This document shows positions 463 through 25,968 of a stretch of DNA of 27,261 nt, piece after piece; the first letter of the stretch is position 1, and each line of letters opens with the position of its first letter. The translations under genes were made by a program, and so were the position numbers. The notes beneath the pieces are model-generated. The model worked only from the letters and a program-made list of their open reading frames with translations, was not told the origin of the DNA and ran no database searches. Origin of the DNA: a virus. The stretch is taken from the IMG/VR virus record IMGVR_UViG_3300006810_008931, positions 1 through 27,261 of that record; one strand, 5' to 3'.

Positions 463-948
463 GTGGCAGAGACAAGCGATTTCAACCCGCACATTCGTAA
501 CGTCAACTCTCCGCTGGAGACCCTGATCCTTCAGGCGCTTCGGCGTTTTGGCGATTACGCACCGTCGACGGCATCTGGTGACACGATCATCATGTTCATT
601 GAGTTTGCCAACCAGATCATAGACGAAGTGCGGATGCACCCATATTGGGATGGAACTGAAATCGACTATTACGAGCATCCATCTGAGGCTCGTGCCATAC
701 CTGACAACATCATCGTGGCTGGCCTGCTGTTTCATTATGCGATGCAGCAGGCCAGCGAGAAGTTCCAGATGTATAGTCAGTCTTACATTCGGACTATGAA
801 TCAAGAGCTTTGGCGTCGTCTTAACGGCGGCAACACCAAGATACAAATGCGCGTCATGGATAATGGGTCCAACCCTCATTATGTCCAAGACGCTAAGACG
901 AGTGAGATCAACGGCCTGCTGGCTGACGACGCGAAACGGTATCAATGA
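463..948 (+). CDS. Head-tail adaptor / tail accessory protein (T7 gp11- or P22 gp4-like)
   Basis: A 161-residue mostly helical protein. Its size and the pattern of long amphipathic helices (around residues 40-62 and 88-125, the latter with LLFHYAMQQASEKFQMY) fit the adaptor proteins that sit between portal and nozzle in podoviruses (P22 gp4 is 166 residues, T7 gp11 196). The start is GTG at 463, one base after the previous stop, with purine-rich GAAGTGAAG just upstream; no ATG gives a comparable N-terminus. It overlaps the next gene by ATGA, so the two are translationally coupled. The call combines size, helical pattern and position immediately before the nozzle-like gene; no signature residue proves it. 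Confidence 0.6.
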   Translation: MAETSDFNPHIRNVNSPLETLILQALRRFGDYAPSTASGDTIIMFIEFANQIIDEVRMHPYWDGTEIDYYEHPSEARAIPDNIIVAGLLFHYAMQQASEKFQMYSQSYIRTMNQELWRRLNGGNTKIQMRVMDNGSNPHYVQDAKTSEINGLLADDAKRYQ

Positions 949-2441: not shown

Positions 2442-2442
2442 G

Positions 2443-3990: not shown

Positions 3991-4409
3991 TGACAGTCAA
4001 CGCCATCACGAAGAACCAGAAAGCGATAGCCCTGATCTCTGGCATGAAGATTGGGCGCGGTCGTTTGCCGGAGCCGAACAGCTCCATTGGTTTTGAGAAG
4101 GATGGCAAGCTGGTGGGGGCTGTTGTCTTCAACAACTTCACGGGGCGGGACATTTGGGTTTCGGTATGGTCGGACGACAAATCCATCTGGACCCGTAAAA
4201 ACATGAAGATAATGTGCGACTACCCTTTCAACATTTGCAGGGTTAAGCGCATCTCTACAGTTGTGCGAAGTGGCAACAAGAAGGCCATCAAGCTCAACAA
4301 GCAGTTTGGTTTCGTCGAAGAGGGGGTCTCTCGCCGTCTGTTCGGGGATGATGAAGATGGAGATGGGGTCTTTTTCGGGCTCCTGAAAGAAGATTGCAGG
4401 TGGCTTTAA
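3990..4409 (+). CDS. GNAT-fold virion protein (T7 gp13-like)
   Basis: A 139-residue protein with a GNAT-like second half. Around residues 87-116 it has a strand (RISTVVRSGN), then a helix and the turn KLNKQFGFVEEG, matching the acetyl-CoA-binding motif A/B region of N-acetyltransferases, where a GN..A...N..GF..EG pattern is usual. T7 gene 13 lies at the equivalent position and also has a GNAT-like fold; its product is needed for assembly of the internal core. The start overlaps the fibre stop by one base (TAATG), and the product is almost the length of T7 gp13 (138). It could be a structural factor that has lost catalysis or an active acetyltransferase that modifies a virion or host protein. 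Confidence 0.7.
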   Translation: MTVNAITKNQKAIALISGMKIGRGRLPEPNSSIGFEKDGKLVGAVVFNNFTGRDIWVSVWSDDKSIWTRKNMKIMCDYPFNICRVKRISTVVRSGNKKAIKLNKQFGFVEEGVSRRLFGDDEDGDGVFFGLLKEDCRWL

Positions 4410-6440: not shown

Positions 6441-8039
6441 ATGAGTTTTGCAGCAGCATTTCAGGCAGTTGGCACAGTATCCAACCTGTTGGGTGCGAGG
6501 TCTGCGCAACGTGCAGCCGCCGAGCGATACAACTATGAGGCGGCTGTAGCCCAGCGAGCGCGAGAGCAGATGCAGCGTCAAGCTAACGTGCAAAACCAGC
6601 TTGGCTCTTATTACTCTCAGCTCATGCAGGATCAGGACGAATACTTCCGGGATCTTTACGACGCTGATCTGGCCCGCGCTCAGGAGCTGCAGCGTTACAT
6701 GCGCGAGGGTGACATTGCCAATGAGGCTCGTCTTCAGTCTGAGTTTGAGCGCACATTGCAGCGCCAGCAAATGCAGGACGCGGCGGCACGTGAGCGCCGC
6801 ATGTTTGAGCTGGAGCGGATTGCCAGTGATGACCGCATTTCTCAGGCCGAGCGTGAGCTTGCGCTAGACGATCTTGCGCGTATGCGTGAAGTTGCCCGCG
6901 CCGAACGTGCGCAGGAGCTGGATGCACGTGCTGCTGGCCAAGGCATGTTGGCGTCGGAGTATCAGGATCGCCTGAACCGACTGACAGAAGATCGGATGCA
7001 GAGAGCCCTTGAGCGTCAGCGAGAGGTAGACCGGCAGGATCAGATCATTGCCGAGCTTTCTGGCACGCGGGATCGAATGCGCGACATTCTGGATCGCACT
7101 GGCCGCATTACTCCGCCTGAGCTTTTGGGTCAGGAAGAGATCGACCGCCGCGCTGATGAGTATTACGGCCAGCTTGAGGGTGGTGTCCAAGCAGCCATGG
7201 ATCGTGCGCTCTCCACTGGCGAAGCTGACATGATCCGTCGGGGCATGGATGTTGGTGGAGCATCTAATGAGCAGCGCTCTGAGATCCTTGCTCGTCTTAT
7301 GCCACAGCTTCAGCAGGCCCAGATCGCCGCACGTCAGTCTGCATCACGTGATGTCGCCGGTCTGAACCGCATCGAACAGGATCAATTTGCATTGCTGCGT
7401 CAGGCACTTAGCGACGAGCTGGCTCGCGAACAAACTGTCGGCCAGTCTGGTCTTGATCTCATGGCTCGTCTTGGGGCTGCGCCGAGCGCAGTCTATGACG
7501 CGAATGTTGGCTCTGCATTCAATGCGGCCCTTCTTGATCCACGCACAAGCGAGCTGAATGCCCGTGGTGCGTTGGATATTGCAAGCCTGCTGCGAAATGT
7601 AAGCGCACCAAGCGCTGGCATCTCGGACATCTTGAGACCGCAAAACATTGCCTACAATCGCAGCGCTCAGGACGCAACGATTGAGGGACCGAACCTCAAC
7701 ACTTATGACTTTGGCGGCTTCTATAGCCGAGGCATGGGTGGTCTTGGTGACGTTATGAGGGATGCTTCTGTAGCGGAAAGTCGCGGATTCAACCGGGCAA
7801 GGGAGGCGGCCATTAACTACGGAGCTTTGCGGCAAAACGCCTCCGAAGGATTTGGCCGGTTCTTGGATAAACGGTTCCCCAATATATTTGACGAAGGCAA
7901 TGCTTTGGGGGCGTTTGGTGGATTGTTTGGTGGTAAGAAAACGTCTGAACCTAAAGTAGACATGACCCCAACATCTTTGTTGTCAGGGTTCACCAAAACG
8001 GACGAGTTTGATGACGATCCGCTTGCGGGCATTTATTAA
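6441..8039 (+). CDS. Internal virion protein candidate with N-terminal hydrophobic helix (532 aa)
   Basis: Residues 2-18 form a small-residue hydrophobic helix (SFAAAFQAVGTVSNLLGA) followed by a Gln/Arg/Ala/Glu-rich coiled coil to about residue 275. This layout resembles T7 gp14, the internal protein that inserts in the outer membrane during DNA ejection, although gp14 is much shorter (about 196 residues). The second half is less helical and ends in a Gly-rich stretch (GNALGAFGGLFGGKK) and an acidic tail (TDEFDDDPLAGIY). The ATG directly follows the previous stop, with GGGGA as a weak ribosome site. Role is inferred from layout and position; no sequence family was recognised. Confidence 0.7.
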   Translation: MSFAAAFQAVGTVSNLLGARSAQRAAAERYNYEAAVAQRAREQMQRQANVQNQLGSYYSQLMQDQDEYFRDLYDADLARAQELQRYMREGDIANEARLQSEFERTLQRQQMQDAAARERRMFELERIASDDRISQAERELALDDLARMREVARAERAQELDARAAGQGMLASEYQDRLNRLTEDRMQRALERQREVDRQDQIIAELSGTRDRMRDILDRTGRITPPELLGQEEIDRRADEYYGQLEGGVQAAMDRALSTGEADMIRRGMDVGGASNEQRSEILARLMPQLQQAQIAARQSASRDVAGLNRIEQDQFALLRQALSDELAREQTVGQSGLDLMARLGAAPSAVYDANVGSAFNAALLDPRTSELNARGALDIASLLRNVSAPSAGISDILRPQNIAYNRSAQDATIEGPNLNTYDFGGFYSRGMGGLGDVMRDASVAESRGFNRAREAAINYGALRQNASEGFGRFLDKRFPNIFDEGNALGAFGGLFGGKKTSEPKVDMTPTSLLSGFTKTDEFDDDPLAGIY

Positions 8040-8060
8040 TCTTAATATTTAGGAGCCGTC

Positions 8061-10265
8061 ATGTTTCAGGGGTACATTGCGCAGGGGGCAACTCAGCAAG
8101 CCGAAGCCAATGAGCAGCAGCGCCGCGATCTCGCGGATCAGCTCGCTCTATATGCACGTCAAAACCCAACCGCTACGCGGGACGAGCTGCGCAATTATGC
8201 AGACAGCCTGACCCGTCAAAATTATTTGATGCCCGGTAATGCGCAGGGCGCAGCCTTTGATGCGATGGTTCGTCGCGCAGACGAGGCAGCGCGTTCCGTC
8301 AATGCCGAAGCATTCCGTAATTTCATGGAAGCGAACCCCGATCTGAGTGCCGATGAGTACATGTCTTACGTTCAAAAAACGTATACTGATCCGCTGCGCA
8401 CACCCTTCAACGCAACACAGCAGGCAGTTCAGTCATTCGTTGATGATCGCACCGAGGCTGAACAGGAAGAGGAAAGAAATAGGCTTGTCGGCATTGATAC
8501 GTTTACTTCTTCAATACGTGACAATCTGTTGGGTCAAGCCCGAGATCTTTATAGAAAACATGGAAACGGTGCGGTTGTCGCCAGTCTGCTCAATTTGCCT
8601 GAACACTATGCGGGCAATCAGATGGCTCAAAACGAACTGGAGCTTTTAAAACGCAATCTAACTGATGGTCAATATGACGACCAGTTTGTTTCAGCATTGC
8701 GTACAGAATTTATGGACGAGCTTGAGTTTTCCATAAACAACGATAGCGAGTTTTCTGAATTCGTGAAAATTTTGCCGGATGGTTTGAGAAATAATCTAGA
8801 ACAAGTTCAATGGTTTGAGAGCACATTTAATCAAAAAAAGCTGGAACGTCAGAACGCTCTTGCCAATAATCAAGCACAACTTTTAAGTGGACTTGAAACC
8901 AACTTGGCCGATCTGGTCGACAGGGGCGCAACTCTTCAAGGCATACGCAACAGCACGGCTTACAGAAGAGTTGTAGAGGTAAAGGGGGAAGATTATGCGG
9001 AGGGTATTGTTGGGCCACTTTTTGGAATTTATACGTTGAGAAAGGATTCTCGATTCAAAGACTTTGCTTTAAAGGGTGTGCCCCTAGAGGATCTTAGACC
9101 TTCGTTAGGTGACCTTGTCGACGACCCACAAGTTCAAGCCGAATATGCCTTAATGGTGGAACGGGCGGCCACCGAGAATCTGCAAAGTAATGTCATCCCA
9201 CAGCTACCTACTCTTGCTAGGTTTATGACAGAGCAAGAGCTGTACGCTGTGTATCCGAATCTTAGAGAGGACCCCCTCCTTAAAGCTCAAGTTCAGGCTG
9301 CTTATGAAGGTGTTGAGTTAAATCTCGAAACCAGACAACAGGCTGCTTTTGAATTTATTCAGGGTTATGTACAAAACAATCCGAATATTTCCATGGCGAA
9401 TATGTTAAATAATCCCGCCGTTAAAGCCGCCCAAGCCTTGCTGACTGAGGAACAATTCCGCTCCGCGATGAATATACCCTCTCAACAAAATTTCCGTCAA
9501 ATCGCATCTGCTGCTACGACGGCAACGTTAGAAGAAATCAACGCTGCCATGGATGAACAAACAACAAACTTCCTTGCGGCTGCAGAACTCGGTCTTCCTG
9601 ACGGATTTATAGCTGCAGAGATCACCCTCTTGGGCAACAATTATTTCATTCCTCCAGAGTACCAAAGAGATATTATTGCTCGACTGAGTGGAGTTGGTAA
9701 AGACCCGATCAAGATCCAACGGGAAGTTGACAAAATTATATCGGACTTTGGGCTACTCACAAAAGAAAACTATAGATCCCAACAGATGAGGAGGCAGGCC
9801 CCCCCAAGTGATCAGATTCCATTTGACCAAGTTGATAATATAATTGAGGACATGGTACGAAAATCAAATACTATTTTGAACTCTTTGGACCCCATATTTG
9901 ATGATGCCCTCTCTGGAAGGGCTCTTGATGCTGCCACTATCCAGAACCACAAAACGAATCTTGAGATTCGACGGCGTGAAATACAGGCAGAAATGGACAA
10001 AGTAAGCAACCAACTCGGAAGGATTTATCAACAGTCCTATTACGACTTCGGTTCGTATAATGAGGATGATCGCAACCGATATGCAGAAGCGCTAGAAAGC
10101 ATGTATCTGGCTTACTCTGGAAAACTCAATGAAATTGACGAACTCCTAAACGAAGACGTCGGGCGTAACTTTGTTAAAATACCATCGCAGGATGTCCCAT
10201 CCACCTTCCGTGGAAGTACTGGTTTTGACTTTAACCTTTTTGGCGAAGACTATTTTCCAGACTAA
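8061..10265 (+). CDS. Internal virion protein candidate, helical, AT-rich gene (734 aa)
   Basis: Not recognised as a named family. The product is almost all alpha-helical, Gln/Asn/Asp-rich, without a clear transmembrane segment, and ends in an aromatic-acidic tail (GFDFNLFGEDYFPD). AGGAG at 8051-8055 lies five bases before the ATG, the clearest ribosome site in the structural block. It sits between the coiled-coil proteins and the giant gene, the slot of T7 gp15, which is 747 residues long; similar size and position suggest a gp15-like component of the ejection channel. From about 8470 to 10140 the DNA is visibly richer in A+T and uses codons such as AAT, TTA, ATA and AGA more than its neighbours, a sign of separate origin. 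Confidence 0.7.
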   Translation: MFQGYIAQGATQQAEANEQQRRDLADQLALYARQNPTATRDELRNYADSLTRQNYLMPGNAQGAAFDAMVRRADEAARSVNAEAFRNFMEANPDLSADEYMSYVQKTYTDPLRTPFNATQQAVQSFVDDRTEAEQEEERNRLVGIDTFTSSIRDNLLGQARDLYRKHGNGAVVASLLNLPEHYAGNQMAQNELELLKRNLTDGQYDDQFVSALRTEFMDELEFSINNDSEFSEFVKILPDGLRNNLEQVQWFESTFNQKKLERQNALANNQAQLLSGLETNLADLVDRGATLQGIRNSTAYRRVVEVKGEDYAEGIVGPLFGIYTLRKDSRFKDFALKGVPLEDLRPSLGDLVDDPQVQAEYALMVERAATENLQSNVIPQLPTLARFMTEQELYAVYPNLREDPLLKAQVQAAYEGVELNLETRQQAAFEFIQGYVQNNPNISMANMLNNPAVKAAQALLTEEQFRSAMNIPSQQNFRQIASAATTATLEEINAAMDEQTTNFLAAAELGLPDGFIAAEITLLGNNYFIPPEYQRDIIARLSGVGKDPIKIQREVDKIISDFGLLTKENYRSQQMRRQAPPSDQIPFDQVDNIIEDMVRKSNTILNSLDPIFDDALSGRALDAATIQNHKTNLEIRRREIQAEMDKVSNQLGRIYQQSYYDFGSYNEDDRNRYAEALESMYLAYSGKLNEIDELLNEDVGRNFVKIPSQDVPSTFRGSTGFDFNLFGEDYFPD

Positions 10266-10271
10266 ACCGAG

Positions 10272-10319
10272 TGAACATAGGAATAAGGACGACCCTTGCT
10301 CTCGTAGCCCATATGTTCA
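10272..10319 (+). repeat. Inverted repeat in the leader of the giant gene
   Basis: The 85-base gap before the giant gene contains an 8-bp inverted repeat, TGAACATA (10272-10279) and TATGTTCA (10312-10319). Inside its 32-base loop is a smaller hairpin, AAGG (10285-10288) with CCTT (10294-10297). No T tract follows, so it does not look like a terminator. It could be an mRNA processing or stability element; the ribosome site of the giant gene (GGAG at 10339-10342) remains outside it. Confidence 0.45.
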
Positions 10320-10350
10320 ACCGTGCCTTTAAAATTGCGGAGTTCTGTCT

Positions 10351-13300
10351 GTGTCAGAATTTGACGATATCCTACGCGCCTTTCGAGACACCAGCCCTGA
10401 AGCTGTAGAGCGGCGTCGGCAACAATATTACGGGAGAGTTGGCCAACTGCAGACAGCCCCTCTGGCGCAGCTTGAGACCGACCCTTATCGGCTTTCCACA
10501 TCAACAGGCGCGGATGCGCTTAAAGACCCCAAGTTTCTGGCCGAGCTTAAGGACTATTTCCGCATAGCCCGAGGCAGGAGCTACGACAGCGACGACAAGC
10601 TAATCGAAGAGTTTTACCGCGAAATGACACGGGCGAACTTTAATTCGCTTGGGATTGCGGAAAGCTATAAGAAGATTAGCGGTGCTGACCAGCGCGTCAG
10701 GGATCTTTTTAATCGTATGCGGGAGGTCTACGATACCGTTCCTGCTTTTTATGAAGAGGGCGGACGCGGGCTTGCTGGGTTTACGCAGGTTGCCGTCAAC
10801 ACAGTCGTTGATCCAATCAACCTTATTGGTTTTGGTGTAGGTGGTGCTGCGGCAAAGGGTGCCATCGCCGCTGGCAAACCTGCAATACAGGCAGCAGCAC
10901 GAAGCGGTGCCACATCTCAGGCGCTAGGGGGTGCAGCCGTTGCTGGCGGATTTGATGCCGCAACACAAGCACGTGACATTGAATCCGGATACCAAGACCA
11001 GTTTAACTTTGGTCGTTTCGGAAGGGCTACGGGGCTAGGTGCTGGTCTGGGTGCCGCTCTTGGTTATGCGGGAGGCAGGGCCGCTGGGCGAAGCGCGCAG
11101 GGGCAGGCTGGTGAAATTCAGAAGCAGCGTTTGCTTGAGCTTAATTATTCCGAAGAGCAGGCTAATCAGTTGCTTGCCGCCGCCAGCGAAGATCAAATCA
11201 ACAACATACTGGCCAACAACCTGACGCCAGAAGCTTTGGAAAAACAGCAGCTTGAAACCTTTAAGCGTCGTCTTATTGAGGCTGGCAAAACTGATCAGGA
11301 AGCTGACGATATCATTGCTAATGCTCAGTCGCCAGACGAAATTGAGCGAGCGATTTCTGGTGGACCGGAGGCTGCTGAAAGCGCCCCCAACACCCCCCGC
11401 GTAGCCACAGAGGAAGAGTTTAATGCCCGTGTGGATCAGGAAAAACAAAACAATCCTGACCTCACAGAAGAAACAGCTCGCGAAGCTGCCCGCCGTGGTC
11501 TGGCGGGCGAGGGTTACAGTCGCGCCGTCATTGACGGGCAGGAAGAGTTTATTGGCTCCACCCGTACAACCAACACTCGCAAGCTGCAAATGCTGCAAGA
11601 CGAAGTCGACAGCATAGTCACGCAGCTAGACGAAGATATCTTGGTCCGTCGTCGCGCTGGTGAACCTGTAGAAGATTTGATCGACTTGCGCACAGAAGTT
11701 GAAAAACTTCGCGGACTGCCTGCTCGTCTTGACCAGTATGATGTTGAGATCCGCAAAAATCTGGAAAGCTCTGACCCGACCGTCGCTGCCAAAGGCGCAC
11801 GCCAGATTGCAGAAGTAAACGAGCTGCGCGATTTGCTGTCCCTGATCCGCGAAGTTGGCGTTCGTGATGCGTCTGAGATTTTACGCAGAGAGCGTCAGCT
11901 TGCCCAGCAACTTGAGCTGGAAGCATCGGCCCAGAAAAAGGTTGCTCGCGCTCAGGCCGATAAGCAGGCCAGAGAAGCTGCAGCAGCCGAAGCTGCACCC
12001 GCTGCTCCAGAAGGTGAAGCTGCTGCGGCTACTCCAGAGGCTGCCGCGCCTGAAGCGGCGGCAGCCCCAGAGCCAGAAGCTGCGCCAGCTCCTGAGCCAG
12101 AGCCTGACCTTACAAGCATACGGTTTACACAGAAGAACGTGTTTAACTATGCCGAGTCAAATGGCTTGGTTCCGGCTGACTTTGAGGGTGTCACCCAAAG
12201 CGGGGTGCGCGGTTACAGCAAGGCGGATGTGGATGGCATTATTGCTGCCAAGCGCGGTGCTGCCGAAGAAGCTGCGCCAGCAGTCGAAGACGTTGCTCCA
12301 GCCGCAGTTGCGGAGGGAGAAGTCCCGCCCGCCTCCATGCCTCGCATCGAGTGGTCATACCGCAGTGACGCCCAACGTGATTCTATTCAGAAGATCCTCG
12401 CTAAAGAAGGATTGGACGAGGCTGATCTGGATGACCTGATCCAAGCGGGTGACGTTGAAGTCAGCCCGAATGGCAAACTCACCAAGGAAGGCAATAAGTC
12501 TCTACGGCGCAAGCTTGAAGAGCGTGGCGTGGAGAAAGCGCCCGAGACTGGCTTCGACAAACAGCTTGAAGGGATTTCTGTCAAGGCTCTGCGCAGGCTG
12601 GCCGAACGCGGATTGCCGCAGGATCACCTTGAATATTTAATTGAGAGCGATCCCGAAAAGCTGCGGGCTATCATGCGTTTGGTGGATCCGAAGAATGGTG
12701 ACGCGATCACCGATTATATTCTGGGACAATCTGGATCTGGCGCAAACATTACAGCAAGAATGGCGTCTGACGCGTCTGGTATTCCCGGCCTTAAATTGAC
12801 TAAGACGGAGCGCAAGCTCGTTGTGGATCGCCGCAAAGCCTACGTGGCCAGCGGGATGGACGAGGCTGATGCAGCTCTTAAGGCAAATCGCGATGTGATC
12901 GCGATGCGTGCCGACAAAGCAGCAGGTAAGTTGGTTCAGCAAAGCGATGTAAGCGGAACGCTTTCTCGTCCTCCGATAGATGTAACTGCTGGTAGAAATA
13001 AATCGGGCGGCATACAGCGCCTGTTAAAGTATGCGTATGGCGGGATGCTCAACCCTGTTGGCCGCATTGACAACGCTTTGGGTGACGAGCTTTTGCAAAC
13101 TGCCGAAGCCATGCGCTCTTATGGCAATCGCCTTATTGAAGATCAGTACGATCTGAGTGCAGACGAAATCAAAAAGGTTAACGCAGCAGCCGAAGGCTAC
13201 ATTGCAGACGGAGCTACTCCGGAGCGGGCGCGAACTCTGGCGGAAGGAGAGGTGCGTCGAGCCCGTCCCCGCCAGCAAGTGCGTAACACCGCGCCAGTTC

Positions 13301-16300
13301 GTGGCTATGCAACTGACGCGCCGCTCGCTGATGGTTCGCCACGCGTAAAATATGACGAAGATGGCAACCCCGTTCTGACCAAGGATGGCCGCAAGGTCAT
13401 GATCCGTGAAAAGGCGAAAGCGGGCGAGCCGATCTTTTACGATCCAATTACAAACGCATTCTATCGCAATGAGCGAGCGATGCGTAAAGCTCGCAATGAG
13501 ACAGACACACTTCGTCCTGAACCATTTGCCCCAGACCAGTATGACGAATTGTTTCAAAACCTTGGGGACGATGCAGAGGCCGCACTTGATGCGCTTATTG
13601 GCTCGCTTAAACAAAACTCTCCTCCTTCTCGCCCTGCCGCTGCGCCTGATACTCGCATAGACTTGCCGCCTGTTCGTCGCACAGCAGATGGTGGTGAAGA
13701 AATCCTTGCTGTCCGCATGGGCGATGGGATCATTCGAGTTTTGAGCGAGGCTCAGATTTCAAGCAACAAAGGTGTGAGGGCCTTGATTGGTGACAACACG
13801 TCACTCTCCGAAATCGAGGTGGGATATGTTCGCGCTCCCGCAACCAGCGGCTCTTATCTTGCGAACAAGACATTTACAAAAGTCGATCCGGATTCACCCG
13901 ACCCATCTCAGTTTAAACCTGTCATCACGTCCACTAGCGCTAAAGGCTCAATCATCAACCCGGTGGCTGAAGATTTTGAGAGGCTCATCCCAGAGGCAGA
14001 GCGGATGCCCGGCAAATCACCCACCGATAAGGTGGGCGAACCAGCAAAAATTCTGCAGCGGCTAGTCAACAAAATAAATTCAGACGCTGATGTCACCAAG
14101 TTTGATATCGATGCAACCATTCAAAGCATCGAGTTCAACATCGGTTGGCCGCGAGGTGAAACAGCAACGGCCTCAGTTGCCGATTTTATGATCGAGCTAT
14201 TGGAGCTGCGTCGCAAGTATGTGCCGGAAGAAATCCGGGCACCTTCCGCAAAAGTTTCAGAAAATATCAAAGCCTTAAGAAGCAAGTCCCTCAACTACAC
14301 TGGCCGGGAAAAGGCACAGATCAAGAGAATTCTTAATTCGATTGCTCTTGCAACTGGCCGCCGTCCAAACATTGTCCCAACGGATTCGGCCCGAGAGTTT
14401 GTGCGTGGCGTAGATCCCCTGACTGGCCGAGATATAAACGAAATTCGGTTGCCAAATTATTTTAGAGGTTTTGGCACTGCTATGGATCAACCAAAGATGG
14501 CGCAGTTCCTGCACGAACTGGGTCACTGGTTGTATGCAAATGCCCTGTCCGTTGATGATCGCATTGCATTCTGGGCGGCAACAAAAAAATACCTTGGCGA
14601 TGCTGAACAGAACCTCCCCGCATTCTTTGGCGTAAACGAGCAAAAGCTACGTGAGCGTCTGCCCATCCCGGAAGACGAAGTTCGTCTTTCATTTGATGAT
14701 GTAAATCTGAATCAGGCCGACAACCCGCAAGAATTTTTTGCAAATCAATTTGCCATCTTTGGTATGCGCGAACGCGTAGACTCAATCTTCAGAACAGAAA
14801 AAATGTTTGATGAGCGGATGCGTGCGGCTCGCATGGGGCCAGACCATGAAGCATATCGCCCAATCATGGGTCGGCTCTTCCGTCTGGCCAAGTCCATATA
14901 CAACCGCTTCTTTGGCCAAGAGGCCATCGAAATAGACGAAGACTTGCTGCCGATCTTTGAGCGCATCCTGCCTGACACCGAAGAAGCAACTCGCGCAATG
15001 AACCTTAAGAATGCTCAAACGGCAACTGGTGCCCGCCTGTTGGAGCGAGGGTACTCCTTACGTGAGCACTCTAACAATCTTCATGATGCGATTGCCAATG
15101 ATGACTCATATGCAATCGTTGATGCAGCCGACAATCTGGCCCGCGAATTGTTTGGCATCGCTGGCCGTGCCAGCAATAGCAATAACCCATCTCCGCCACA
15201 TGATCCGTTCCGTGTTCTTCGTGAAGTTCATGGCAAAGCCCGCGATCTTTCTCGCAAACTGCATGAAGCTATTGGCATCAAGGATGAGCTGGAAGGCGGC
15301 TACTATGACGAAGACGGCCTGTATGTCAGCAACATCGACCCTGACGTGGTCGCCGACAATATCGTAAAAGCCATATCTGGAGCTGATGGCTCTTTGGACA
15401 GCGCTCGTGTTGTTGGCGAAGTAATCGATGAAATACGCAAGAAGTTCAACCAGTTAGACGATGAGTCCGTCAAGCTGACCAAGTCATTTGAGCTTGACTT
15501 TAAGCGGCCACGAACCACGACATCCAAGCGTTATGCTAAGGCCAGCCTTGCCAAGAAGCAGAAGAAGAAAGCAGAAAAGCGTAAGGTCAAGGCGGCTGCA
15601 GCCAGAGCTGCGAGAGAGGGCCAGCCCGAGCCATCCATGAACCCTGCCGAAGCAATGCTTCCTGTCCGCTCCATGACGGATGACCAGCTTGCTCAAGAGT
15701 TGGCGCAAGAGGGCGGAACCAACAGAGGTCGTATCATCGCCAATGAAATTGAGCGACGTGAACGTGCAGGTCCCGCAAGTGTTGGCATCGGCTCAAAGTC
15801 TGAGCGCGTGTCGCAAGCACTGGAAAATGAGGCTGCCCACTCTGCGGGCAATGGAGACACTGCAATTCCTGCTGCGCCTGAGCCAATTCGTCAGGCGCTT
15901 GAGTTGATATCAGCGAGAGATCCTGATCGTCGCAACACAGCGCAAACGCTTTTCTATCGCATCATGAATCTGCTGAATCCGGAAAGCGCATTGGACGGTT
16001 CTCCCTTCCCGACTGGCAGGACGCTTCGTCTTATTGCTGACGCAGATCCCTCTCCAGATTTTTCCGATGGCGTGCGGATACTTGATTTTAAAAACTCGAA
16101 AGAGTTTAACGCTGCTCGTCTTGGGGTTCGTCGCATGGCAACGAATTTGTCCAAGACTAAAACAGGGAAGCAGAAAGCGGCGGAGGCTGTCCTTCAGGAT
16201 CTGGCAGACTTGGTGTACCGGCTTGGCCTTTACGACACGAGCAGTCAGTTCACGAGAGAATCATTTACCAAAGCGCTCGTCTCACACCTTCGTGCGTCTG

Positions 16301-19300
16301 ACCGCTCAGTCCTCGAAGGTTTGTCTGATCCCAATTTTGTTGATGCAATTATCACTGGCGCTGACTCAATCGCATACCTGACAAATGGTCTGATTGCTCG
16401 CAGTGACATTGCGCAATCTGCACCGAACCTCGGGCGCTATGGTGATATGTTTGGTGGCACAAGCTCACCTGTTTCACATGTTACAAAAACCACAAAGGAG
16501 GCAACCACGGCACCGGGGGTTTACTCTGACCATCTGGCTGCTGAACTTGCAGAGCAAACTCTGCTTGGCTTGCCCGTCCCATTAAGACGAGCTGTTGCCA
16601 AGTTCACAGGCGCAAGCTCGCCAAAAATTTATTTTGTTCCGTGGCGTGGGGGCAATCCTAAAACTCCATCCAGCGAAAAAACGCCCGTGGGCAGCGGATT
16701 CAGAATCAGCCGCAATATCTCAGACATTGCTGAAATCAATGATCCCGACGTGTTTGCCAGCGCCGCAAGGGAACTCGGCAAGACTGACAATGAGATAGAA
16801 GAAATTCTTGAGGTGGTGCAACAAAGGCAGTCTCTTGTTGAGAAGGCTGAAAAGCGCAGAATGGATGCGCAAACCGCGACCCCCAAGAGGGCCAAGGGGC
16901 TGCTTAAATCTGCTGAAGATATTGATATGCAGATACAGGAGCTTGACGCCGATTATTTGTCTGAGCTTTTTGAAGAAGCGTATGGGCACAAGATGGGTGT
17001 TGTTCCATTTGTCTTGTCTGACTCTGCCAGAAAAAATTCAATTTCATTTGAAAGCGCAACCAAGATAGATGTCAACGAACTCATGCCCATCATATCCAGA
17101 ATGATTGGAAAGTTCGGGGTCTCAAGGGAACTTGTTTATGATGTGATGCAAGGAAGAGCGTCTCCCGGTTCTGACATAACTGGTGATGAAGCGCTGCAAA
17201 TTCTGGTGGATCTAATCTCGGGAGGGTTCGACAACAACGGATTCAGGAAGCTTAATTCCACAGATAGATACCAAGAGCTTCAACGAGTTCTCAAGGACAT
17301 GGGCTACGAGTCTGTGCGGTTTGAGAATTTTGACATTGTGTTTGACGCCAAGAACATCAAGCACTTGGAAGACTTCGCCCCAGACATAGAGCCAGACATC
17401 ACGGCCAAGATGACTGTTGGTGCCCGAGCTGTAAATCGGGAGCTTGTTTCTTCTGCACTTGAGGGACATCGCATCAATGGGGACACTGAGTCATATCTCC
17501 GCTTCCTACTGGCTGCGGATGGTACGCCCCAAGACGTAGTGTCCGCCATGAACAAGGCGATGAACGGGAAGGTCCCGAACGCCCGTGAGGTAGGCTCGTT
17601 CCGTCGTTTCTTCCAGAGCTTCCTTGCGCAGAACACCACGAACACAAGACGTGCCGGGATGCACTGGATTGCAGACTGGGTTGCCCCGTCTCGCGAAGCT
17701 GGTACTGGCCATTTTGAACGAATTGCTGGTCAAACAGGGCAAGTCCTGCAGCCCGTTTTGCGCTCACTGCGCAAGCTGCCGGAAGCAGGAGGCATCGCCG
17801 CATGGCGTCGCCGCGCATTGGACTACGGGTTCGTTCCCGAGGGCGTAAAAGAAACAACGCCCGGCCTTCGCCAGCCAAAAGCCTATAAGAAAATTGTGCG
17901 GGCATTGCGCCGTGATCCCGGATCTAAGCAAGAGCAAGCCCTTACGCCGGACGAGCTGGGTGTCTACAAAAGCATTCGCGCTATGTTTGGCGACATGCAC
18001 CGCAGGCTGGTAGAAGCTGGTGTGATGATTGGCAATGTCACACCCTACTTCCCGCAGGTGTGGTCGGTTGAAAAGATCAAGGCAAATCAAGATCAGTTCC
18101 TCGATGCCCTGTCTCGCTACCTTTTGGACGAAGCGGCAAGCAGCCCGCGCAGTAGTCCAATGTCTAAAGATGATTCAATGGTCATTGCCCGTCGCATCAT
18201 GGGCAACCTCATAGATGATGACGGTGTCTACACACCACCGCCTGTCAGCTCGCGCTCTCCGGTTGGTGACCACGTTGACTACCAGCGTCTCATTCGTCTT
18301 GATAAATTCCAGAATCACCTCGATGACGTTGGCCGTTTCTTGGAGGACGATCTTGAAGCGATCATTGCCAAGTACGTCGATAACGGAATGCGCAGAATTG
18401 ATTTCGCTGCCAAGTTTGGAGAGGGCAATCACGGCTTCCACGACTACATAAGCGTAATGGAAGATTCGGCTACTGGCTTACAGGCCGTGGCCCGCTTGCT
18501 TTCGTCTAACAAAATCGAGAAGAGAAATTTTACCGCACGCTCCACCACTCCCGGCGGCGAAACAGATGAGGTCGTCTTAGAACGTCTAACATCCATGCCG
18601 TTCAAGTCTCTGGAGGGCGCGTTGCCTGCGGCCAAAAAAGCTCTTGAGATGGCAGAGAAAGGAGACGCCGCATCTCTGCGCAATTTCCTTCTGGCTCTTG
18701 ACACCAACACGGCAGACTACGCACAGCGCACTTATGCCAAGCGAGTTGATGCAATCGTTGGTGGCCTTATGGACCGTCAGCGGATCGGCAACAAGCGGCC
18801 AGCAGCTCAAGACATCAAAGAGGCTACTGCGTTGATGCGCACCACAATGCGTAAGCCGGTTGATGCAGGCGGAACATTCTTCGAGATGTCTCATGGCGTC
18901 TCGAAATGGTCTAGAAACATTATGTCCTTGACCCTGCTCGGCTTCACAACCCTTACGTCCTTGGGTGACCCGGCGCTAGTTGCCATACGCAGTGGAAACC
19001 TGAAGGCTTTCTCTGAAGGGATTGGCAAGTGGATAACAGACCCAGAGTATCGTGAAATGATCAGGGGTTCTGGCGTCGCTATTGAACAGTTGGTTCACGA
19101 GCGCATGACTGGCCTTTACGGAACGGACGCATCCAGAACAACAACTGCCTTTTTCAACGCAACATTGCTGTCTCCATGGACGTCAATGCAACGTCAGTGG
19201 GCTGGCGCAGTTGCGCTGCAGTGGTTCCATGCGGAGATGAAGAAAGCTGCGAAAGCTTATGATCCGTCTAAACCTTTGCAGCAGCAAAGCGGTCAATACA

Positions 19301-20187
19301 AAAAGAGCTATCGCATCTTGCGCAGATATGGCGTCGAAGGTTTGCTCGACAGTCGTGAGACGACAGGCTTTGATCCTATGCTGCCCGACTTTGAGAAGAT
19401 GCCGCAGCTTCGAGATGGCATGATTAAGTTTGCCAACGAGACGATCTTCACGCCCAACCCGAACGACATTCCTCTTTGGGCTCAGACGCCGATTGGGGCG
19501 ATGGTTTTCCAACTCAAGTCTTTCCCGTTGATGATGCAGCGTCTGGCTGCAGACACACTCGTCAATAACTTGCGGGTTGATCCTGTCACACAGGGTGGAC
19601 GTCGGTTTAGCCCTCTATTGATGATGGCAACGCTTGGCCCGCTTGGTGGTGCTACTGCCTTGGGCGCAAAAGATTTTGTCCAGCAGCGCGGCGAAGACGA
19701 CAATACTTTCCGCCGCAGAAGTCTTAGCAAGATCCTTGGCCACGATGAAAACATTCACGGCCCGCTGGATGAGTTCATTGGCTGGTATGCAGAAGGGTTT
19801 GCCATGATGGGCGGACTTGGTCTGGTGGCCGAGTTGATGCACGACAGTGTTGAACAGCTTGATCAGGGCGGAGCTTATGGCTCCATGCGCTTCATGAGCA
19901 ACCTTGCTGGCCCGAGCTTCGGTGCCGTTTATGATGTCACTCAGGTGGGACAGGGTCTCGTAGACGCCGCAACCGAGGGACGCGAAAACGGAACTGGGGT
20001 TGAACGCGCTGGAGCAAGAGCCGTGGTAAGACGCGTCCCTGTTCTCGGCGGTGTTCGTTCCCTGCGAGAGTCCGCAGTAGATGTGATTGCTGGAGAGTCG
20101 ACCAGAGGCAAGGCCAACAATAGCTCATGGGACAGCCAGTGGGGCGGATGGGAAACCAATGAATGGGATAGTAAGTGGGGCGACTAG
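10351..20187 (+). CDS. Giant polyvalent virion protein with zincin protease and ART-like domains (3278 aa)
   Basis: One uninterrupted frame, 36% of the window; GTG start with GGAG eight bases upstream. Domains in order: helical N-terminus (1-135); Gly/Ala-rich hydrophobic stretch (137-250); Ala/Pro/Glu linker (530-588); peripheral-subunit-binding-like module (589-636); zincin metallopeptidase with HELGH (1388-1392) and probable third ligand E1461 in QEFFANQF; Lys/Ala-rich basic stretch (1718-1756); ART-like domain (about 2090-2345) from IYFVPWRGG to GYESVRF and DIVFDAKNIK; a long helical region with TPYFPQVWS; probable membrane-active segments (about 3088-3110 and 3141-3165); Trp-rich end (WDSQWGGWETNEWDSKWGD). 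The tail-proximal part resembles large podoviral internal proteins such as T7 gp16. It is likely packaged and ejected with the DNA, delivering enzymes to the host. No lytic transglycosylase motif was recognised. Substrates are unknown. Confidence 0.85.
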   Translation: MSEFDDILRAFRDTSPEAVERRRQQYYGRVGQLQTAPLAQLETDPYRLSTSTGADALKDPKFLAELKDYFRIARGRSYDSDDKLIEEFYREMTRANFNSLGIAESYKKISGADQRVRDLFNRMREVYDTVPAFYEEGGRGLAGFTQVAVNTVVDPINLIGFGVGGAAAKGAIAAGKPAIQAAARSGATSQALGGAAVAGGFDAATQARDIESGYQDQFNFGRFGRATGLGAGLGAALGYAGGRAAGRSAQGQAGEIQKQRLLELNYSEEQANQLLAAASEDQINNILANNLTPEALEKQQLETFKRRLIEAGKTDQEADDIIANAQSPDEIERAISGGPEAAESAPNTPRVATEEEFNARVDQEKQNNPDLTEETAREAARRGLAGEGYSRAVIDGQEEFIGSTRTTNTRKLQMLQDEVDSIVTQLDEDILVRRRAGEPVEDLIDLRTEVEKLRGLPARLDQYDVEIRKNLESSDPTVAAKGARQIAEVNELRDLLSLIREVGVRDASEILRRERQLAQQLELEASAQKKVARAQADKQAREAAAAEAAPAAPEGEAAAATPEAAAPEAAAAPEPEAAPAPEPEPDLTSIRFTQKNVFNYAESNGLVPADFEGVTQSGVRGYSKADVDGIIAAKRGAAEEAAPAVEDVAPAAVAEGEVPPASMPRIEWSYRSDAQRDSIQKILAKEGLDEADLDDLIQAGDVEVSPNGKLTKEGNKSLRRKLEERGVEKAPETGFDKQLEGISVKALRRLAERGLPQDHLEYLIESDPEKLRAIMRLVDPKNGDAITDYILGQSGSGANITARMASDASGIPGLKLTKTERKLVVDRRKAYVASGMDEADAALKANRDVIAMRADKAAGKLVQQSDVSGTLSRPPIDVTAGRNKSGGIQRLLKYAYGGMLNPVGRIDNALGDELLQTAEAMRSYGNRLIEDQYDLSADEIKKVNAAAEGYIADGATPERARTLAEGEVRRARPRQQVRNTAPVRGYATDAPLADGSPRVKYDEDGNPVLTKDGRKVMIREKAKAGEPIFYDPITNAFYRNERAMRKARNETDTLRPEPFAPDQYDELFQNLGDDAEAALDALIGSLKQNSPPSRPAAAPDTRIDLPPVRRTADGGEEILAVRMGDGIIRVLSEAQISSNKGVRALIGDNTSLSEIEVGYVRAPATSGSYLANKTFTKVDPDSPDPSQFKPVITSTSAKGSIINPVAEDFERLIPEAERMPGKSPTDKVGEPAKILQRLVNKINSDADVTKFDIDATIQSIEFNIGWPRGETATASVADFMIELLELRRKYVPEEIRAPSAKVSENIKALRSKSLNYTGREKAQIKRILNSIALATGRRPNIVPTDSAREFVRGVDPLTGRDINEIRLPNYFRGFGTAMDQPKMAQFLHELGHWLYANALSVDDRIAFWAATKKYLGDAEQNLPAFFGVNEQKLRERLPIPEDEVRLSFDDVNLNQADNPQEFFANQFAIFGMRERVDSIFRTEKMFDERMRAARMGPDHEAYRPIMGRLFRLAKSIYNRFFGQEAIEIDEDLLPIFERILPDTEEATRAMNLKNAQTATGARLLERGYSLREHSNNLHDAIANDDSYAIVDAADNLARELFGIAGRASNSNNPSPPHDPFRVLREVHGKARDLSRKLHEAIGIKDELEGGYYDEDGLYVSNIDPDVVADNIVKAISGADGSLDSARVVGEVIDEIRKKFNQLDDESVKLTKSFELDFKRPRTTTSKRYAKASLAKKQKKKAEKRKVKAAAARAAREGQPEPSMNPAEAMLPVRSMTDDQLAQELAQEGGTNRGRIIANEIERRERAGPASVGIGSKSERVSQALENEAAHSAGNGDTAIPAAPEPIRQALELISARDPDRRNTAQTLFYRIMNLLNPESALDGSPFPTGRTLRLIADADPSPDFSDGVRILDFKNSKEFNAARLGVRRMATNLSKTKTGKQKAAEAVLQDLADLVYRLGLYDTSSQFTRESFTKALVSHLRASDRSVLEGLSDPNFVDAIITGADSIAYLTNGLIARSDIAQSAPNLGRYGDMFGGTSSPVSHVTKTTKEATTAPGVYSDHLAAELAEQTLLGLPVPLRRAVAKFTGASSPKIYFVPWRGGNPKTPSSEKTPVGSGFRISRNISDIAEINDPDVFASAARELGKTDNEIEEILEVVQQRQSLVEKAEKRRMDAQTATPKRAKGLLKSAEDIDMQIQELDADYLSELFEEAYGHKMGVVPFVLSDSARKNSISFESATKIDVNELMPIISRMIGKFGVSRELVYDVMQGRASPGSDITGDEALQILVDLISGGFDNNGFRKLNSTDRYQELQRVLKDMGYESVRFENFDIVFDAKNIKHLEDFAPDIEPDITAKMTVGARAVNRELVSSALEGHRINGDTESYLRFLLAADGTPQDVVSAMNKAMNGKVPNAREVGSFRRFFQSFLAQNTTNTRRAGMHWIADWVAPSREAGTGHFERIAGQTGQVLQPVLRSLRKLPEAGGIAAWRRRALDYGFVPEGVKETTPGLRQPKAYKKIVRALRRDPGSKQEQALTPDELGVYKSIRAMFGDMHRRLVEAGVMIGNVTPYFPQVWSVEKIKANQDQFLDALSRYLLDEAASSPRSSPMSKDDSMVIARRIMGNLIDDDGVYTPPPVSSRSPVGDHVDYQRLIRLDKFQNHLDDVGRFLEDDLEAIIAKYVDNGMRRIDFAAKFGEGNHGFHDYISVMEDSATGLQAVARLLSSNKIEKRNFTARSTTPGGETDEVVLERLTSMPFKSLEGALPAAKKALEMAEKGDAASLRNFLLALDTNTADYAQRTYAKRVDAIVGGLMDRQRIGNKRPAAQDIKEATALMRTTMRKPVDAGGTFFEMSHGVSKWSRNIMSLTLLGFTTLTSLGDPALVAIRSGNLKAFSEGIGKWITDPEYREMIRGSGVAIEQLVHERMTGLYGTDASRTTTAFFNATLLSPWTSMQRQWAGAVALQWFHAEMKKAAKAYDPSKPLQQQSGQYKKSYRILRRYGVEGLLDSRETTGFDPMLPDFEKMPQLRDGMIKFANETIFTPNPNDIPLWAQTPIGAMVFQLKSFPLMMQRLAADTLVNNLRVDPVTQGGRRFSPLLMMATLGPLGGATALGAKDFVQQRGEDDNTFRRRSLSKILGHDENIHGPLDEFIGWYAEGFAMMGGLGLVAELMHDSVEQLDQGGAYGSMRFMSNLAGPSFGAVYDVTQVGQGLVDAATEGRENGTGVERAGARAVVRRVPVLGGVRSLRESAVDVIAGESTRGKANNSSWDSQWGGWETNEWDSKWGD

Positions 20188-23419: not shown

Positions 23420-23904
23420 TATGATTTCCTTTTTGCTTGTAGTTTCACGAAGACGTTCCGCCCCTTCAGCGCTGGCTCAAACACAGCCTGCTCAACGGGG
23501 CCGAGGTCATCCCACGTCTTGCGTGAGATGGACAGGCGCTGGTTAATGACATTCGTCGTTGCGTCTGCCGTGCTCGAGATGGTCTTCAGCATCTCGCTAT
23601 CCCAAGAGAGACGAGCGACGGGTGTCATTCGCCCCGTCCACTGGTCTGTCTCGAAGTCCACGGTCTCTTCGTCCGTCAGCTTGCCGCCAACAAACTTGTC
23701 AACCATGAACTGTAACTGCTCTTTCTTCTCCGAGATCAGGGCGTCAAGTGCTGCGACCTGCTCGTTCATTTCGGTAATTTCATCCAGCATATCGTTCAGA
23801 TCTTTGGACTGAATCTGGAACACGCCGTCGCGCACATATGATTCGTAATGCCGGGTGGAAATCGGCTCATCTGCCGATGAACCATGGGGTACTCTGAGTT
23901 TCAA
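23419..23904 (-). CDS. Coiled-coil protein heading the recombination operon (TTG start)
   Basis: A 161-residue protein starting MKLRVPHGSS. The frame is open up to a GTG at 23988 (189 residues), but that GTG has no ribosome site and would place the operator dyad in coding sequence. The TTG at 23904 has AAAAGGAG six bases upstream, so I chose it. Residues 33-90 include a coiled coil (LNDMLDEITEMNEQVAALDA); the second half has several short strands and ends in a basic tail (FVKLQAKRKS). I do not recognise a family. First place in the operon before the Sak4-like ATPase suggests a DNA-recombination accessory, which is inference only. Confidence 0.65.
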   Translation of the reverse strand: MKLRVPHGSSADEPISTRHYESYVRDGVFQIQSKDLNDMLDEITEMNEQVAALDALISEKKEQLQFMVDKFVGGKLTDEETVDFETDQWTGRMTPVARLSWDSEMLKTISSTADATTNVINQRLSISRKTWDDLGPVEQAVFEPALKGRNVFVKLQAKRKS

Positions 23905-23910
23905 GTGGGG

Positions 23911-23918
23911 CTCCTTTT
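23911..23918 (-). promoter_or_regulatory. Ribosome binding site AAAAGGAG deciding a TTG start
   Basis: On the minus strand AAAAGGAG is followed by CCCCAC and then TTG at 23904. It is the only strong Shine-Dalgarno match between the divergent control region and the coding part of this gene. Confidence 0.65.
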
Positions 23919-23942
23919 TAGTGATGTATTGGTAAAGTGATG

Positions 23943-24012: not shown

Positions 24013-25968
24013 ATGACATTACTAAACGCCGCCCTCGAGTATCTCGAGGAGGGCCTGTCGGTCATCCCGATACGCCCGGACACTAAGCGACCTTGCATTC
24101 GTTGGAAGGAATATCAAAGCCGCCAAGCGACCGAGGAAGAGGTCGAGGAATGGTTCCGCATCTGGCCCGATGCCTATCTGGCCGTGGTCACGGGAGCCGT
24201 CTCGGGAGTTCTCGTGGTTGACTGCGACAATGACGAGGCATTCAGGACAGCAGTGGCTGCCGGGATGCGCTCGCCTGTTATGGTCAAGACGAAGCGGGGT
24301 TGTCACCTGTGGTTCAAGGACCCGGCAGACGGACAGCGTCGAGGACCACGTGCTGGCAACAACAGCACCGGAGCTGACTGGCCACGCGTAAACGGTTTGG
24401 ACTTCAGGGGTGACGGTTCGTATGCCCTGCTCCCGCCGTCTAAAAACTATGAGTGGAGTGTGCCAGAGGGGCTGGATCGTCAGGACGACATGCCAGTGTG
24501 GAGGGACTGGAGCCCTGCGGTTGGCACGAGCACAGCAGATGCCTTCGTCTTCGAGAAGCTGGACTTGTCGACCGTGCGTTTCAATCCAGCGGAGCTGATG
24601 ACCGAGTGGGAGCGCACCGAAGCCTACATTCGTGATCAGGGTTTCCCCGGTGGAAAGATCCCTTCTGGCCAGAGCAATGGGCGCAATGAGCGTGTCATCC
24701 GCTACGCTGCCGAGTGCGTGCTTCAGGGAATGTTTGGCGCAGAGCTGCGTGTTCGCGCTCGCGCTTTCATGGACAAGTTCTTTGTCGATCACCTGCCAGA
24801 GTTTGAGTACGAGGCGACGATATCCAGCGTCGAGCAGATGGAAAGGCGCAATCACCCTGAGCGTTTCGATCCCAACACTGGAGACTACGTCTACAAGCGT
24901 CCGGGTCCCGGACCAGAGGAGGACAGAAAGCCTCGTCGTCTTGTCACGGTGGCGGATGCGGAGGATCTCATTCAGGCTGGCGAGGGTCAGGAGTATCTGA
25001 TCGAGCCATGGCTTGCGCCGCAGACGATTGTTCAGGTCCATGGCTATTCCGGTTCGGGCAAGACGATGTTCCTGCAACATGCTCTTTACGCCATGGCTTC
25101 GGGGGCTCGCTACTTTGGGCCTTACGAAATCAACCGGGCTGCCAAGACGCTTTACATGGATTTTGAGTTGAGCCGTGGTGATCTGGGTCGCAGGCTGGTA
25201 CGGATGCGCTCCGTCTTTGGTGACGCCGAAGATCGCTTCTCGGTGTGGGCACCGTGGATTACGGGCGAGGAGTTGAGCCTGTCGGATGCGGCGGGTCTGC
25301 AGGAGTTGCAAGCCTACATCGAGTTCGCTCGTCCCGACGTTGTTGTCATCGACACCATCCGCTCGGCGTGGTCAGGTCTTGCGGAGAATGATGCAAGCGC
25401 ATGGTCACCCATCAACAAGCTGGCTGTTCGTCTCAGGAATGCGGGCATCGCTGTCGTCATGCTGCACCACAGCAACAAGCCGGGCGAGGATGGTCTTGGT
25501 CGTGAGGCTGGCTCGTCTAACCAGCTCACAGTTGTTGAGACCCAGATCCGGATTGCTCAGGTTTACCAAGACGAAGAGACAGCCAAGCAGAAGTCTGGCA
25601 TCTGGAATGAGAAGTATTCCGTTCCGCCATTCGAGAATCTGCAGGCCAAGCTCACTGATGAGTGGTACATCGAGATGGTCTTGGAGGTTCGTTATGGGAA
25701 GGTCAGGGAGTGGACTCACCTGCACGATGCGATCAGCTTCATCGGTTGGGCGACGCATCGTGAGACGGGTGAGGCTCGCATCGTCAGCAGCTTCTCCACG
25801 AAGCAGAAGGCGAAGGAGATGGCGTTAGACGGACAGGCTCCTGCAGATATTGCGCAGGCCCTGTTCCGTCCTATGAATGTGATAAGTCGTTGGCTTGGCC
25901 TAGAAGATCAGGCGGAAAAAGACAGTCCAGAAGGTGAGGCAGAAGAGGAGAGCCCCGGTCCAGACTGA
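24013..25968 (+). CDS. Primase-polymerase / RepA-like helicase fusion protein
   Basis: A 651-residue replication protein. Residues 1-170 are a prim-pol domain: VVDCDN with D70 and D72, TKRGCHLWF with H98, and GLDFRGDGSYALLPPS with D130. Residues 330-560 are a RecA-fold ATPase of the RepA/DnaB-like group: Walker A GYSGSGKT (344-351), Walker B VVVIDT with D447, and MLHHSNK (483-489) as sensor. The two are joined by a helical region (190-300). This single chain can supply priming and unwinding at the fork. The C-terminus is acidic and possibly disordered (EGEAEEESPGPD). GAGGA lies four bases before the ATG. It has its own upstream control region and converges, 14 bp apart, on a small minus-strand gene. 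Confidence 0.88.
   Translation: MTLLNAALEYLEEGLSVIPIRPDTKRPCIRWKEYQSRQATEEEVEEWFRIWPDAYLAVVTGAVSGVLVVDCDNDEAFRTAVAAGMRSPVMVKTKRGCHLWFKDPADGQRRGPRAGNNSTGADWPRVNGLDFRGDGSYALLPPSKNYEWSVPEGLDRQDDMPVWRDWSPAVGTSTADAFVFEKLDLSTVRFNPAELMTEWERTEAYIRDQGFPGGKIPSGQSNGRNERVIRYAAECVLQGMFGAELRVRARAFMDKFFVDHLPEFEYEATISSVEQMERRNHPERFDPNTGDYVYKRPGPGPEEDRKPRRLVTVADAEDLIQAGEGQEYLIEPWLAPQTIVQVHGYSGSGKTMFLQHALYAMASGARYFGPYEINRAAKTLYMDFELSRGDLGRRLVRMRSVFGDAEDRFSVWAPWITGEELSLSDAAGLQELQAYIEFARPDVVVIDTIRSAWSGLAENDASAWSPINKLAVRLRNAGIAVVMLHHSNKPGEDGLGREAGSSNQLTVVETQIRIAQVYQDEETAKQKSGIWNEKYSVPPFENLQAKLTDEWYIEMVLEVRYGKVREWTHLHDAISFIGWATHRETGEARIVSSFSTKQKAKEMALDGQAPADIAQALFRPMNVISRWLGLEDQAEKDSPEGEAEEESPGPD

Follow-up and report, generated by a model that had tools for sequence, protein, structure and literature searches.

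A probable gp16-type ejection protein of 3,278 residues from a CRP-810-type marine phage, with a polyvalent insert in which one putative zincin protease looks active

The window, the whole 27,261-nucleotide stretch of virus DNA that was analysed and the full length of its source contig, contains a complete ORF of 3,278 aa (10351..20187, + strand, GTG start) that is read here as a polyvalent gp16-type ejection protein. It is probably the gp16-equivalent of a CRP-810-type short-tailed marine phage, with a large cargo inserted into it in which the first zincin alone still looks active. The C-terminal part is clearly of T7 gp16 type, the cargo carries one well-preserved zincin site, and a second zincin and an ART domain that relatives keep intact have decayed.

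The frame runs from the GTG at 10351 to a stop at 20187, 3,278 codons with no internal stops. A chance long frame was ruled out by the uninterrupted homologues and by the probability of a stop-free run of this length, about 1e-47 given the stop-codon frequency of the window. The 9.8-kb frame and 3,278-residue protein of the original prediction were thus upheld, and in most contigs by far the full-length homologues are unbroken. Complete homologues, from uncultured relatives of Roseobacter phage CRP-810, span 3,050–3,550 aa in a single frame. Among 50,697 phage records searched, CRP-810 is the only isolate that matches along the length; the likeness of Pelagibacter phage HTVC033P is confined to the N-terminal ~100–150 residues. 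In IMG/VR, a C-terminal profile identified 203 relatives, of which 80 were retained, while a middle slice alone found none among viral contigs and a first scan of genome contigs also found none. Prophage or host-bin copies are present in Poseidonocella sp. HB161398 (L085) and in MAG contigs, and the copy in L085 is likewise 3,278 codons from stop to stop. The CRP-810-type phages were described as a family built on one isolate and 251 contigs, with FZCC0198 as the cultured host of CRP-810; ORF36 was named internal virion protein D, and polyvalent proteins, ART and zincins are absent from that paper (PMC11288001).

The giant gene is split over three overlapping frames in CRP-810 and in contig L040. 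The breaks in CRP-810 (L001) fall within 17790–17920 and 23800–23920, and the second coincides with a 31-nt tandem duplication when compared with the close relative L028; these breaks could be assembly error, true fission or frameshifting. In L040 the three overlapping frames occupy 2604–12460, whereas its close relatives L034 and L033 are unbroken. A split gene as the normal state was rejected, as uninterrupted full-length ORFs dominate, but CRP-810, the sole isolate, carries three frames, and the sequences at face value do not show one chain in every member. Two MAG contigs have other arrangements. In the fragment L087 (3–3287), the frame passes from the second zincin and ART straight into the late gp16 body and does not have ~640 residues found in other members. 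In the Neomarinimicrobiota contig L088 (629–4054 and 4058–12613), the N-terminal gp16-like region and the remainder are adjacent separate genes, and the split falls inside the cargo. Long antisense open frames lie over the giant gene in L002 (5097–8555, minus strand) and L084 (5954–9007 and 9080–12118, minus strand); they encode 1,152, 1,017 and 1,012 aa and are probably an effect of codon bias.

Scanned in one piece against the HMMs of Pfam and PHROGs, the 3,278-aa protein gave no matches; slices of the protein and its relatives, not the full chain, were needed for domain detection. The original prediction placed its domains at no particular residues, and the positions stated here come from this analysis. 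PDB matches of kinesin, calmodulin and keratin type were discarded as coiled-coil or chance.

An ejection-protein body of T7 gp16 type makes up the C-terminal ~860 residues (17527..20100, +, residues about 2393–3250), as both profile and fold matches confirm. Comparison by hhalign with four gp16-type proteins gave a global Prob of 99.8 (E 2.8e-29) and a local Prob of 99.3 (E 1.2e-20), and the HMM matches are collinear over three blocks of the TL-2011b protein. With T7 gp16 as the sole profile target the match was far weaker (Prob 17). Residues 2373–3278 match PHROGs virion structural families (best 8.8e-12), and 11 of 41 family C-termini match phrog_342 (best 2e-22) over its C-terminal part. 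T7 gp16 scores 1,354 bits against phrog_342, and the TL-2011b protein (1,004 aa), which a family C-terminus finds by tblastn at E 5e-12, matches it at 4.8e-210; phrog_342 is therefore the gp16 family.

The AlphaFold2 model of the C-terminus (mean pLDDT 71.9, pTM 0.74) is in agreement. Foldseek found no PDB match at E<=0.001 for either this model or that of the cargo; the core proteins, like the zincins described below, emerged only after re-ranking with VIA-align. The top four chains were then podophage core proteins – PhiM1, T7 (two entries) and E1004, with Z 8.2–8.9 over 258–302 residues – and the next unrelated chain had Z 6.0. Values of Z 6–9 are modest for large, partly helical models, and the gp16 claim is carried by the sequence evidence. 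A C-terminus like that of podoviral ejection proteins, as first proposed, is borne out.

At the other end of the protein, the resemblance to gp16 is weaker. A conserved Gly/Ala-rich, mildly hydrophobic segment (10480..11100, +, residues 44–250) has about 45% identity inside the clade of the window and appears, from profile comparison, to resemble the first membrane region of gp16 (TMH I). The N-terminal profile matched gp16 of Alteromonas phage ZP6 at 181–299 with E 5.9e-6, a score reached by none of 500 local shuffles. Matches to T7 gp16 (323–391) and to Vibrio 456E52-1 (123–184) are collinear and non-significant, so the TMH I match is significant for one gp16 only (ZP6). The hydrophobic stretch expected at the N-terminus is present, but it is mild: its Kyte-Doolittle peak, 1.3 at residues 147–172, falls short of a classical transmembrane helix. 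In T7 gp16, TMH I comprises residues 243–410, and gp16-C (411–1118) is thought to be cytoplasmic in the host (PMC8954989). The cargo is placed between TMH I and gp16-C because the C-terminal evidence is strong and the N-terminal evidence moderate. A lytic transglycosylase domain was not found in the N-terminal slices with Pfam or PHROGs; this domain is not universal in gp16-like proteins, as P22 and Sf6 do not have it (PMC8954989).

The giant gene comes after amidase-like, tail-fibre-like and unknown virion-block genes, and CRP-810 has the same order, in accordance with the proposed position as last gene of the block. Directly upstream is a gene of 734 aa (8061..10265, +) that corresponds to T7 gp15 in position and falls within its size range, preceded in the same block by one of 532 aa (6441..8039, +) that is positionally like another ejection protein; PHROGs detected no gp14 or gp15 homology in either. 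The virion-block gene at 945–2441 (+) has an amidase-like PHROGs match (5.9e-8) and could possibly supply the peptidoglycan hydrolase missing from the gp16-like protein. Also within the virion block is a GNAT-like acyltransferase gene (3990–4409, +; phrog_4470, E 3e-31), whose position is conserved in CRP-810 (gp40). Elsewhere in the window, 24013–25968 (+) encodes a bifunctional primase-polymerase fused with an AAA_25 helicase-like domain, as does CRP-810 gp23.

The cargo, which separates the gp16 body from the N-terminal membrane region by ~2,100 residues, contains a zincin-like metallopeptidase domain, here called zincin 1 (14248..14985, +, residues 1300–1545), for which the AlphaFold2 model supports a fold like that of lethal factor and Pro-Pro endopeptidases. 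The HELGH zinc-binding motif is at 14512..14526 (+, residues 1388–1392, with H1388, E1389 and H1392), and the putative third zinc ligand is E1461, in PQEFFANQF (14731..14733, +). Both the HExxH and the Glu about 70 residues downstream are invariant in all 34 homologues that cover the region. An HExxH appears in 1.7% of shuffled copies of the protein, and the evidence is therefore the conservation, not the motif alone. In the cargo model (13888–17466; pLDDT 73.0, pTM 0.46), residues about 1300–1545 were aligned by VIA-align with lethal-factor-type zincins at modest Z values of up to 6.9, and with the Pro-Pro endopeptidase PPEP-3 at Z 5.8 over 145 of 206 residues. A zincin 1 profile had no significant match among PDB sequences, with Pro-Pro endopeptidases below significance, and no Pfam peptidase family matched the window protein. 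The zincin protease site that had been predicted is nonetheless well founded, given the invariant HELGH and Glu and the zincin-like model. The peptidase domain of phage N4 has been assigned to the same zincin superfamily (PMC5512222).

In fourteen members of the family an HE(I/V)xH motif occurs a second time, about 600 residues past the first HExxH, and is followed by EW..E. In the window, the corresponding domain (15868..16530, +, residues 1840–2060) is degenerate, and the HEIGH of relatives is QDLAD at 1949–1953. The next domain (16588..17385, +, residues 2080–2345) is a degenerate ART-PolyVal domain. The Pfam ART-PolyVal family (PF18760) was matched in 23 of 37 relatives' cargo slices, with scores of 39.1 bits in L063 and 31.4 bits in L028 (gathering score 31.2), and had no match in the window slice. 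Most relatives keep the YHGT and GPGIY motifs; in the window these are YFVPW (2094) and GSGFRI (2114), and the catalytic His and Tyr are replaced. Profiles of the ART and second zincin regions had no significant match to PDB sequences.

The window falls within a fully supported clade of five, in all of which the second zincin and ART are degenerate. On a tree of the C-terminal domain, a quick tree with several long branches, the state of the ART switches once and that of the second zincin twice. The change is read as loss, since a scaffold that persists is more likely to lose its catalytic residues than to gain them. At a matched C-terminal identity of ~49%, identity in the second zincin is 24% in the window clade and 52% in the intact groups, and in the ART 21% compared with 33–36%, while in zincin 1 it is 33% and 34%, respectively. 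The linkers have 23–25% identity, about the level of the ART in the window clade. This comparison is descriptive, as the sequence pairs share ancestry. Judged by their sequences, the second zincin and ART are decayed features of the family that have lost their catalytic residues in this clade; the ART of this phage is very probably dead, and zincin 1 is the sole enzyme that still looks active.

The ART-like domain of the original prediction can therefore be recognised as a region, at about 2080–2345, that is ART-PolyVal in most relatives, but in the window its motifs are lost and Pfam does not match it. The modification of host targets by this ART is unsupported for this phage: both catalytic residues (His and Tyr) have been lost, the whole clade shares the decay, and identity is down to that of the linkers. 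An injected multi-effector, in which the zincin processes the chain and a still-active ART modifies host targets upon entry, is accordingly most doubtful here. Polyvalent proteins have been proposed to act in this way (PMC5512222), both zincins and the ART all occur in the family, and relatives such as L063 or L028 could still fit such a reading; the replaced His and Tyr, the missing Pfam match and the clade-wide loss of constraint argue against it for the window.

The rest of the cargo includes an Ala-Pro-Glu-rich linker (11968..12120, +, residues 540–590), evident in the sequence, a small conserved module with YRSDAQ...GKLT (12349..12522, +, residues 667–724) that is 43% identical to L056 over 667–723, and a conserved domain before zincin 1 (13633..13860, +, residues 1095–1170). 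A candidate peripheral-subunit-binding-like module (12109..12261, +, residues 587–637) is a look-alike to which neither Pfam nor PDB profiles lend support. Pfam E3_binding was matched in 4 of 24 members (best 3e-11 and 7e-13), with L020 scoring 48.9 bits against PF02817 (gathering score 23.7). PF02817 was absent from the window, and a five-sequence profile of residues 587–637 found no E3-binding domains. The predicted binding module is thus real in four relatives, but its counterpart in the window goes unrecognised by Pfam or profile.

The theme of polyvalent proteins was recovered in the predicted structures: the best viral matches of the cargo are three BFVD proteins named 'Large polyvalent protein associated domain' (E 3.8e-17 to 6.9e-9). 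In polyvalent make-up, the window protein joins a zincin to a gp16 body, and relatives add a second zincin, ART and E3_binding. The best PDB match of the cargo is a chain of the cyanophage A4 pre-ejectosome (9k3a_B; Foldseek E 0.018, VIA-align Z 9.0, 166 residues), which may point to such cargo in another ejectosome.

The location of the protein in the virion, its ejection and topology, and the activity and target of its protease are inferred. A few copies would be packed in the head and, during infection, threaded out through the tail along with the DNA; the N-terminal region and the gp16 body would then anchor the protein in the inner membrane. T7 gp16 probably passes into the cytoplasm after its first membrane region; as the cargo lies at that point of the chain, it would reach the cytoplasm too. 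Zincin 1 may cut the giant chain itself, in the head or after entry, or a host protein, and the remnants of the second zincin and ART would serve at most as spacers or binding surfaces.

Even zincin 1 might be kept for structure, with the whole cargo a catalytically irrelevant filler or structural mass in this phage. In favour of this, two of the three enzyme domains are dead with length undiminished (3,278 aa), but 34 of 34 homologues keep the catalytic Glu, its two flanking His and the third ligand, which catalysis demands and bulk does not, and a filler role is very unlikely.

The task of an active zincin 1 could be confined to virion maturation, trimming the chain inside the head to let it fit or leave, with nothing acting on the host. 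This is a tenable possibility that falls short of probable. Zincin 1 is never lost while the putative host-directed enzymes come and go, DdrB of phage P1 is cleaved prior to packaging (PMC5512222), and it has been proposed that the zincins of polyvalent proteins carry out self-processing (PMC5512222). On the other side, N4 ejects its vRNAP, which has a similar zincin domain, as a chain of ~3,500 residues (PMC5512222, PMC12633501), and for the giant protein no cleavage site or fragment is known. The zincin might instead cut a host cytoplasmic protein, for example a defence or envelope protein, having been carried in by the gp16-type part. By analogy with the topology of T7 gp16 (PMC8954989) the insert would reach the cytoplasm, and the closest folds are substrate-specific secreted zincins. 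This alternative is rather unlikely. The zincin is invariant over hosts as unlike as roseobacters and, possibly, SAR11, which speaks against a single host target that evolves fast. The universal retention of zincin 1 amid the turnover of other enzymes tips the balance slightly towards a housekeeping task, for instance self-processing.

For the family as a whole, the case is evenly balanced for a broader proposal: that the junction of TMH I and the cytoplasmic body is a cargo bay whose inserted enzyme modules the DNA-injection machinery brings into the host cytoplasm, with one permanent zincin and with other modules (the second zincin, ART and binding domains) that are exchanged and decay where they stand while length is kept.

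For the crossing of the inner membrane by short-tailed phages, the reference protein is T7 gp16. A gp16 version of 3,050–3,550 aa with an insert would join the mechanics of the ejectosome to polyvalent injected effectors, hitherto treated apart. The gp16-like proteins in a 2022 review are of 609–1,337 aa (PMC8954989). The combination of domains had been suggested to be undescribed. Zincin and ART together in giant injected polyvalent proteins, including those of N4-like podoviruses, are already known (PMC5512222), but no description of zincin/ART cargo inside a T7 gp16-type protein was found in the open-access literature searched. Among podoviruses, ARTs are otherwise uncommon (3%; PMC9503650). 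The family is widespread among marine viral contigs, includes the isolate CRP-810 on a cultured host, and forms a natural active/dead series for the ART and second zincin. The old conjecture of processing or attack by polyvalent zincins after injection is therefore directly testable.

Among known systems, the short gp16-type proteins – T7 gp16 and those of TL-2011b (Escherichia), 456E52-1 (Vibrio) and ZP6 (Alteromonas) – are homologous by profile to the C-terminal ~860 residues of the window protein and similar in fold. They are likewise encoded by the last gene of the ejection block, and the N-terminus of the window protein appears to resemble their TMH I, weakly except in ZP6. They have about 1,000–1,320 aa, compared with 3,278; unlike T7 gp16, the window protein has a ~2,100-residue enzyme-bearing insert and no N-terminal lytic transglycosylase. 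The cyanophage A4 pre-ejectosome protein (PDB 9k3a) matches 166 cargo residues in structure, without a sequence match.

The N4-type vRNAP (gp50) is of comparable size, about 3,500 aa, and is the third protein of its ejection operon. It, too, has an HExxH domain of zincin type, along with a C-terminal part that is large and helical, and N4 demonstrates that ejection of so long a chain with such a domain is feasible (PMC12633501). Unlike in gp50, the C-terminal part of the window protein is gp16-like, and no slice scan with Pfam or PHROGs matched an RNA polymerase family. With the phage polyvalent proteins (Iyer et al. 2017, PMC5512222), in which the zincin peptidase is the commonest domain, the window protein shares a giant multi-domain architecture, a place among virion genes and a zincin, along with an ART-PolyVal domain in most of its relatives. 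It differs from those described in being built into a gp16-type ejection protein and in having lost the catalytic residues of its ART and second zincin. A further counterpart is CRP-810 gp36-gp35-gp34 (PMC11288001), an orthologue that is divided into three overlapping ORFs, whose annotation goes no further than 'internal virion protein D' and hypothetical proteins, and that is collinear with the window protein over its whole length, with the motifs of zincin 1, the second zincin and ART all intact.
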